From IMG/VR virus record IMGVR_UViG_3300045978_000309, positions 1 to 33,257 of that record: a stretch of 33,257 nucleotides of DNA. One strand, written 5' to 3'. The translations under genes were made by a program, and so were the position numbers. Under the pieces are notes generated by a model. It was not told the origin of the DNA, searched no databases, and saw nothing but the letters and a program-made list of their open reading frames with translations. The DNA comes from a virus. Within the stretch, counting starts at the first letter, position 1. Every line of letters starts with the position of its first letter. Of the stretch, positions 1 through 898 are shown piece by piece.

Positions 1-136
1 CCTTCGCCCGAAGTGCATGAAGAGCAAACAGGAGATCAGCCGTGCGTTCCGTAAGAACGAGGCGCGCGGCACGATCCGGTGCGAAGGCCGCAGGATCATC
101 GCGGTTCCGGCGCCGGAACCGGTCGATCGCCCAAAG
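1..136. repeat. Terminal direct repeat, left copy
   Basis: The first 136 bases recur at 33122-33257. I see one mismatch, T127 against G33248, which changes an Asp codon to Glu in the initiator gene. The open frame that starts at 32805 continues in phase through the repeat. This is what a circular or circularly permuted genome looks like after assembly; the mismatch points to strain variation or a read error. Confidence 0.93.
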
Positions 137-898
137 TCATCACATTTGATGACTTTCCGGACTGATCAGGCGTTCCTTGCGACGCGCGATCCGGCCGAGC
201 TGGAGCGTCTGGCCCGGGCGAAGGAGACTGTGGCAGAGATCGAGCGGCAGCAGAAAGCGGACTACCGCGAGTACCGAAAGTCATCAAATGTGATGACTTT
301 CGACCCGCCTGACCCGGAACCGGAAGTTGCGCGCAGCGGCGACTCTTCCGATCGGAATGTGATGACTTCCGGGGCGACCGACCTTATTACTGAAGAAGAA
401 AGACTTAAGAAGTACATCGTCGTCGTCGGAACAACAGCACAGCCGACGACGACGAATGGGTGCGTAAACGGACACGCAAGCGCCCCCGCCGCAACCGAGC
501 AAAATAGTGCGGTTTTAAGCGCTCCCGACCCCGTTGCCGAAGCGCTGCACTACTGGGCTCCCGGCTCCGATGCCGTCGCGAAAGAATCGCTCTGCCGCAT
601 GGTCCGCGAGATCGCCAAAGACGCCACGGACGACGAAATCGCCCACTCCATCAATGTGAAGGGGCCTGTAGCCCGGTCGAAGAAGAACCCGACTGGCTTC
701 CTGCTCACGGCCGTGCCGAATCACTTTCGTTCGCCCGCTCTGTGGCGCGCCGATCTCCGGCGTGCGTGCGGCGCCGCGGCGGAAGCGTGCCCGGCGCCAA
801 TGACACCAGCGCAGATTGCCGATGTGCTCAACGATCCGGACTTCACAGAGAGTCAGAAGCGCCAGATCCTCGGCGACGATTACAGGAAGCCGTCATGA
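1..898 (+). CDS. Phage replication initiator (O-like), C-terminal part; gene continues from 32805
   Basis: This is the 3' part of a gene whose 5' end lies at 32805-33257; joined across the circle it encodes about 404 residues. The N-terminal third looks like a winged-helix initiator domain. The C-terminal part contains DEIAHSINVKGPVARSKKNP followed by TGFLLTAVPNHF, which resembles the tail of phage replication initiators. The middle is low-complexity and contains the peptides SSHLMTF, SSNVMTF and RNVMTS. These are encoded by palindromic DNA repeats, so this part of the gene appears to serve as the origin as well as coding sequence, as in lambda O. The stop codon overlaps the next start (ATGA at 895-898). 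No helicase or helicase loader is recognisable nearby, so the host replisome is probably recruited. The initiator role is inferred from fold-like features and embedded iterons, not from a search. Confidence 0.75.
   Translation, partial: LRPKCMKSKQEISRAFRKNEARGTIRCEGRRIIAVPAPEPVDRPKSSHLMTFRTDQAFLATRDPAELERLARAKETVAEIERQQKADYREYRKSSNVMTFDPPDPEPEVARSGDSSDRNVMTSGATDLITEEERLKKYIVVVGTTAQPTTTNGCVNGHASAPAATEQNSAVLSAPDPVAEALHYWAPGSDAVAKESLCRMVREIAKDATDDEIAHSINVKGPVARSKKNPTGFLLTAVPNHFRSPALWRADLRRACGAAAEACPAPMTPAQIADVLNDPDFTESQKRQILGDDYRKPS
133..156 (+). repeat. Iteron 1 (palindrome)
   Basis: The arms AAAGTCATCA and TGATGACTTT are perfect 10-bp inverted repeats around the spacer CATT. The site is the reverse complement of iteron 2. 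Confidence 0.85.
277..300 (-). repeat. Iteron 2 (palindrome, inverted copy of iteron 1)
   Basis: It has the same 10-bp arms as iteron 1, around AATG, the reverse complement of CATT. The whole 24-bp site is therefore an exact inverted copy of the one at 133-156. It encodes the peptide SSNVMTF. Confidence 0.85.
356..368 (-). repeat. Iteron 3 (half-site)
   Basis: AATGTGATGACTT matches the spacer and right arm of iteron 2; the left arm is not conserved. It lies just before the AT-rich tract. Confidence 0.65.
417..455. other. Hairpin next to the AT-rich origin tract
   Basis: TCGTCGTCGTCGG at 417-429 pairs perfectly with CCGACGACGACGA at 443-455 across a 13-nt loop. No T-tract follows, so it is not an obvious terminator. 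It could be a single-strand initiation structure of the origin. Confidence 0.55.

Follow-up and report, generated by a model that had tools for sequence, protein, structure and literature searches.

A putative phage replication origin within the coding sequence of its candidate initiator, and similarly built genes in mobile elements of Acidobacteriota

The window, that is, the whole stretch of 33,257 nt of viral DNA analysed here, is a tailed-phage genome with terminase, portal and capsid genes. Its first 136 positions are the same as 33122-33257 with one mismatch (T127 versus G33248), and the contig is apparently circular or has terminal redundancy. Because of this repeat, the open reading frame (ORF) found at the beginning of the window is incomplete as written; it starts near 32805, crosses the join and continues in an unbroken frame to 898, giving 404 codons and a protein of 404 amino acids. 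The gene discussed below was thus assembled across the contig ends, with one mismatch in the overlap. A terminal overlap of this kind suggests a circular contig that was broken at the putative origin, together with strain variation; the overlap itself stops in the first bases of the first of the sites described next.

The 3′ part of this ORF contains, in order and inside the coding sequence, two palindromes of 24 bp, a half-site, a purine/AT-rich tract and a hairpin with 13-bp arms, all of which were located where the initial annotation had placed them (Table 1). Each of the two palindromes is the exact reverse complement of the other, and the distance between their starts is 144 nt. The repeated peptides that had been attributed to these sites (SSHLMTF, SSNVMTF and RNVMTS) are also encoded as described, and can be seen as KSSHLMTF, KSSNVMTF and RNVMTS. 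In the 60 nt before the TCG tract that forms part of the hairpin, the GC content is 43%, versus 62% for the whole gene, and the hairpin folds as single-stranded DNA with -16.8 kcal/mol (z -4.2). An additional palindrome just 5′ of the first iteron was not included in the putative origin; palindromes of this size are also met elsewhere in this GC-rich sequence. Neither a further copy of the full 24-mer nor a DnaA box was detected in the 33 kb window, and positions 1-1000 yielded no promoter-like site.

Table 1. Parts of the candidate initiator gene of the window, and repeats found in its homologues
Feature	Position	Strand	Sequence	Remarks
Initiator ORF, 5′ part	32805..33257	+		N-terminal domain, candidate winged helix-turn-helix (wHTH) near its end; from terminal overlap, continuous frame and wHTH alignment with L068/L094/L095
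Initiator ORF, 3′ part	1..898	+		End of N-terminal domain, linker with embedded putative origin, C-terminal domain
Additional palindrome	102..121		CGGTTCCGGCGCCGGAACCG	GC-rich, 20 bp; left out of the origin
Palindromic iteron 1	133-156		AAAGTCATCACATTTGATGACTTT = AAAGTCATCA-CATT-TGATGACTTT	Perfect 10-bp arms around 4 nt
Palindromic iteron 2	277-300 (275..302)		AAAGTCATCAAATGTGATGACTTT	Perfect 10-bp arms around 4 nt; arms reach 12 bp at 275-302
Iteron half-site	356-368	+	AATGTGATGACTT	Terminal half-site also closes the array in L068, L094 and L095
AT/purine-rich stretch	381-416	+	ACCTTATTACTGAAGAAGAAAGACTTAAGAAGTACA	Putative DNA unwinding element; low GC; words TTTAGG and TATAAGG common to the homologue family
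Hairpin arms	417-429 and 443-455 (417..455)	+	TCGTCGTCGTCGG / CCGACGACGACGA	13-bp arms, 13-nt loop
C-terminal domain	521..877	+	NPTGFLLTAVPNHF (motif)	Conserved, helical, putatively replisome-recruiting; family profile match, AlphaFold model
Dyad of L067			GATGTTCC-N5-GGAACATC	Three copies
Dyad of L068			TTTGGTAGTCTGTACAGACTACCAAA	
Repeats of L068 and L095			TTTGGTAGTC/GACTACCAAA	
Dyad of L094			CAGGTAGCC-N6-GGCTACCTG	
Repeat of L110			ACCCATGGGT	Many copies
Repeat of L109			TTTGGTGCACCAAA	Many copies

Neither part of the ORF has a significant family in Pfam or PHROG (for Pfam, the window protein gave none at E<=1), and no family of Pfam, NCBIfam or PHROG covers the C-terminal domain. The AlphaFold model of this domain is all-helical, with seven helices and a pLDDT of 89. 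Searches with this model in Foldseek gave nothing at E<=0.001. Weak fold matches include Bcs1 (Z 6.1) and the DnaD domain 2i5u, for which 73 residues align with Z 4.9 and rmsd 3.0, and DnaD-type domains, several DnaD-like phage proteins among them, recur in these weak matches. A DnaD-type fold is a lead only, and the model may fit other folds too. The model of the N-terminal part is poor (pLDDT 39), and its similarity to the N-termini of homologues is weak (phmmer E of 0.3 at best); the wHTH of the window is a candidate, drawn from a low-similarity alignment and this poor model.

The DNA patterns were compared with a null model in which codons are permuted within the gene between sites coding for the same residue, which keeps the protein and the codon usage and destroys DNA patterns. 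In the window gene, the dyad score is 20 versus 1.2 in these synonymous shuffles (P=0.002), and the score for 9-mer repeats is 72 versus 17 (P=0.002). No dyad excess was found in 12 other window genes, while a few control genes (capsid, fibre, portal) show an excess of 9-mers, at most about 2.4-fold, which makes the dyad measure the cleaner of the two. A single palindrome is not rare, with 11 palindromes of 10-bp arms and a loop of at most 6 nt in the whole window; what stands out is the identical pair together with the half-site, and not a lone palindrome. It had also been suggested that the cumulative GC skew should turn near this region. No such turn was seen; the skew is flat over this region and climbs through the plus-strand structural genes, and it is uninformative on the position of the origin because gene orientation confounds it.

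No close relative of the window initiator was found by whole-protein searches of viral contigs, genome contigs and phage records, and tblastn of the ORF against 50,697 phage records gave no match better than E=5. Exonuclease and terminase neighbours were also tried as a route to relatives, and none of those recovered carried the initiator gene. A scan with the palindrome core returned 17 contigs, nearly all with lone single sites, as would be expected by chance in so large a collection. On one of them, an unrelated phage contig (L055:1070-1310), TGATGACT/AGTCATCA half-sites of either orientation are densely clustered in non-coding DNA, near a gene that resembles a primase-helicase by eye only. 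This cluster may be an iteron-type origin that uses the same 8-mer as the core of the window palindrome, and it is not counted as evidence because the search that turned it up used this very 8-mer.

Homologues were found through the motif of the C-terminal domain (NPxGFLLTAVPxxF; NPxGFLLxAVPxxF). When translated back into degenerate DNA, it matched the viral contig L067 and, in a scan over 84,980 species, three genome contigs (L068-L070), from one Terriglobia MAG and two Bryobacterales MAGs. All three genome contigs belong to Acidobacteriota and, for this reason, the window phage most likely infects a member of this phylum. A profile of the C-termini, followed by a wider one, was then used within Acidobacteriota and yielded about 40 homologues, the genomic ones all from Acidobacteriota. 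Their identity to the C-terminal domain of the window is 17-34%; the E-value of this domain against the family profile (4e-38) is inflated, because the window itself supplied a row of this 12-row profile. The window protein has the same make-up as this family, with a C-terminal motif domain placed after a linker that carries iterons, an AT-rich stretch and a TCG/CGA tract. No paper on these initiators of Acidobacteriota was found in the open-access literature; they form a family of self-contained initiator genes, apparently undescribed so far, in viruses and mobile elements of this phylum.

In most homologues the order of the parts is conserved, that is, DNA-binding region, repeats, AT-rich stretch, TCG/CGA tract and C-terminal domain. 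The repeats are dyads or half-sites with a sequence that is peculiar to each lineage. According to the initial annotation, relatives that keep the protein while lacking the palindromes would speak against an origin. Taken literally, such relatives are the rule, as the exact window sequence occurs in none of them, but other dyads lie at the same place. Constraint at the DNA level is also seen across the family; of 40 genes, 37 have more 9-mer repeats than their shuffles (P<0.02), and 23 have more dyads (P<0.05; P<0.01 for 12 of these), leaving 17 of the 40 without a dyad excess at P<0.05. In L109, L110, L080 and L122, iterons are also present in the first part of the gene, so that they flank the wHTH coding sequence on both sides. 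Iterons upstream of the wHTH are in fact found in many homologues, something for which a simple lambda picture has no need.

The tract beside the C-terminal domain recurs as well. In counts that, like those of repeats and dyads above, are not fully independent, because near-duplicate genes (for instance, L075/L076) were kept for tract, GC, words and partners alike, 24 of the 40 family genes have a TCG or CGA run of 8 nt or more that lies no further than 120 nt from the C-terminal domain, versus 3.9 +/- 1.8 in synonymous shuffles (maximum 9, 200 shuffles); the other 16 have no clear tract. The 60 nt upstream of the tract have a lower GC content than the gene in all 24 tract-bearing genes (0.42 versus 0.57), and some words are enriched there over the shuffles, such as TTTAG (8 versus 0.6), CTTTAG (6 versus 0.2) and TATAAG (9 versus 1.8). 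In addition, a self-complementary partner lies within 70 nt of the tract in 18 of 23 genes, versus 9.3 expected when the tract is held fixed. The tract codes for serine (TCG) or threonine (ACG) in a single phase in the homologues, while the TCG arm of the window lies in another phase, partly as GTC (valine). The statement that the tract is read in many frames was considered and found too strong, since the window alone departs from the phase of the homologues.

The nearest subfamily is formed by L068, L094 and L095, which have an SPEF-type N-terminal stretch in common with the window at a low overall identity (20-22%). Their arrays consist of a full site, 135, 153 or 156 nt, respectively, a second full site, 57 nt, a degenerate site, 33 nt and a half-site; in the window, the two full sites are 144 nt apart and the half-site follows 69 nt on. 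The spacing of 144 bases, initially regarded as unusual, is therefore a trait of this subfamily. Comparisons within the trio separate the two ends of the protein. The C-terminal domain of L095 is 75% identical to that of L094, and their iterons are different. By contrast, L095 and L068 share only 31% identity in the C-terminal domain, and they have wHTHs that are 72% identical and the same iteron array. The residues of the recognition helix agree with this division, being RMTKQ in L095 and L068, and RACRQ in L094. Among 190 pairs from another subgroup, those with half-sites in common are more alike in the wHTH once C-terminal identity is allowed for (P=0.003), but no more alike in the C-terminal domain once wHTH identity is allowed for (P=0.6), a result that is supporting only because the pairs are not independent. 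As judged from these alignments, iteron sequence follows the DNA-binding domain and not the C-terminal domain, a co-variation that would be expected if the N-terminal domain reads the iterons.

The window ORF is thus very probably a replication initiator, with the DNA of its linker region serving as the replication origin of the phage, a reading drawn from sequence comparison. The proposal of an origin embedded in the initiator gene gains support from distant homologues, which keep the order of the parts while the dyads change by lineage, and from DNA patterns that exceed those of the shuffles. By analogy with known systems, the N-terminal domain, with its candidate winged helix, would bind both iterons and the half-site, probably as a dimer. 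Assembly on the iterons would then melt the AT-rich stretch, and the helical C-terminal domain would bring in the helicase/primase of the host. Recruitment from the host is proposed because no helicase or primase was recognised among the phage genes and patterns tested in the window. More speculatively, the TCG/CGA hairpin beside the AT-rich stretch might be an entry or priming site that is exposed on melting.

Other functions for these sites may be considered. For instance, the same protein could use the dyads for autoregulation or as centromere-like partition sites, to control expression or to achieve coupling to ParA, with the origin elsewhere. The presence of iterons upstream of the wHTH region in homologues fits such a role, as does a ParA gene that lies directly upstream of the initiator homologue in L126, L127, L129 and L130, where no ParB was seen beside it. 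Nevertheless, the window phage has no gene recognised as ParA, and its sites adjoin the AT-rich stretch and the TCG hairpin instead of a promoter, with nothing promoter-like in the first 1000 positions. The AT-rich element, with its shared words, is moreover conserved just downstream of the iterons, and a purely regulatory or partition role appears unlikely.

It is less probable still that the repeats serve the protein, as a low-complexity linker that was expanded by duplication and in which the palindromes are a by-product of repeated peptides. All window sites are in the same frame and encode similar peptides, stretches rich in serine and threonine are common in linkers, and the capsid, fibre and portal controls also have some excess of 9-mers. 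However, synonymous shuffles that preserve these peptides fail to give the dyads, and the repeated peptides of different lineages have nothing in common. The tract also behaves as one element of double-stranded DNA, found in either orientation, as serine or threonine codons, and in another frame in the window, where part of it is read as valine. The least credible proposal, that the palindromes are mRNA hairpins controlling translation or decay, can point to their stable folding as single strands (with DNA folding parameters), but the half-site forms no such hairpin (z -0.8), the direct-repeat and half-site arrays of homologues are not hairpins, iteron sequence follows the DNA-binding domain, and the AT-rich and TCG elements would be left unexplained.

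As a putative origin embedded in an initiator gene, the locus can be compared with two known systems, and the best reading is that the window initiator would work like lambda O or staphylococcal RepA_N, membership in neither being established. The resemblance to lambda O and its ori noted initially holds, in that iterons and an AT-rich region lie inside the initiator gene and each iteron is an inverted repeat. Palindromic iterons, on the other hand, do not set the window apart as had been thought, since those of lambda are imperfect inverted repeats of ~19 bp (PMC7466680). In lambda and in the versions of Stx phages, as is proposed for the window, the origin is found in the middle of the initiator gene with an AT-rich stretch on one side, and lambda depends on the host replisome, as is proposed for the window phage (PMC7466680). 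There are also differences. Lambda has a block of four iterons, while the window has two dyads 144 nt apart and a half-site, and in the window a TCG/CGA hairpin comes after the AT-rich part. Lambda O families have no sequence match in the window protein (PHROG, Pfam; tblastn of phage records), and no helicase loader of the P/DnaC type was recognised beside the window gene, where reading of the small ORFs at 898-1352 linked them to no family.

In the RepA_N protein of pSK41, an N-terminal winged helix binds boxes that are central in the rep gene, and the ori encodes the linker (PMC5703833). The helical C-terminal domain of RepA_N proteins is conserved by host group, and in pPR9 the N-terminal domain and the origin were exchanged together against the C-terminal domain of pSK41 (PMC5703833). 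The window likewise has its putative origin boxes in the central, linker-encoding part of the gene. The swap in pPR9 is paralleled by L068, L094 and L095, in which N-terminal domain and origin are exchanged relative to a constant C-terminal domain, and the homologue L075 has a match to HTH_36 (PF13730), which is the family given for pPR9. In contrast, RepA_N (PF06970) has no match in the window protein or in four homologues scanned, and RepA_N is found in Firmicutes while the window family is found in Acidobacteriota. RepA_N initiators are also characterised by a helical, DnaD-like C-terminal domain; for the window family the resemblance to DnaD folds is, as stated, a weak lead. The nearest described family for the C-terminal domains, the STY4528 family of pathogenicity-island replication proteins (NCBIfam NF040582), matches 4 of 31 of them weakly (best E=0.0044), far from a family-level match, and does not match that of the window itself; papers retrieved on STY4528 give no description of its origin. 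As for iteron plasmids of the Rep_3 type, the window protein has no Rep_3 domain, and the window, as mentioned, has no DnaA box.

The genes found beside the homologues (ParA, integrase or a PRD1-type capsid protein) place them in mobile replicons. On L067, positions 9825-11066 encode a major capsid protein of the PRD1 type (PF09018, E=4.5e-41) and there is also a packaging ATPase match; this contig seems to be a tailless phage using this type of initiator and origin. Of the contigs with ParA, L126 also has an integrase, and in all four the ParA gene and the initiator possibly form a partition/replication module. Since it is present in a tailed phage, in the PRD1-type L067 and in ParA-bearing elements, the initiator module serves several kinds of mobile elements. 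A wider proposal, in which confidence is somewhat below even, is that of a replicon cassette of Acidobacteriota shared by tailed phages, PRD1-type tailless phages and ParA-bearing integrated elements. The C-terminal domain, the AT-rich element and the TCG/CGA hairpin would be its constant part, acting as an entry port for the host replisome, and the DNA-binding domain would be swapped together with the iterons, as a unit. The hairpin would then be a new origin element, for example, a site for helicase loading or a primase start site.

Acidobacteriota are abundant in soil, and the mobile elements of this phylum have been little studied. As the gene would be its own origin, it offers a ready-made minimal replicon and, consequently, a lead for genetic tools in these bacteria. 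The lineage-specific pairs of DNA-binding domain and iterons are also a natural data set on which residues choose which bases, within which L068, L094 and L095 amount to a natural swap experiment, and the recurrence of the TCG/CGA tract next to the putative site of melting speaks for an origin element.

Some other features of the window were observed. Between the initiator and terminase genes there are two repeats of 37 nt (1626-1662 and 1697-1733), 95% identical and separated by a spacer of 34 nt, which resemble a phage-borne mini CRISPR array with one spacer; a search of 257 genomes of the order of G024 did not detect the repeat. A lone reverse-strand gene inside the structural block (5049-5504, minus strand) has an HTH_17 match and is possibly an excisionase or a regulator. 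Finally, a putative secreted protein, presumably similar to secreted proteins of Acidobacteria, is encoded beside the integrase at 30607-31368 and may be a cargo gene.
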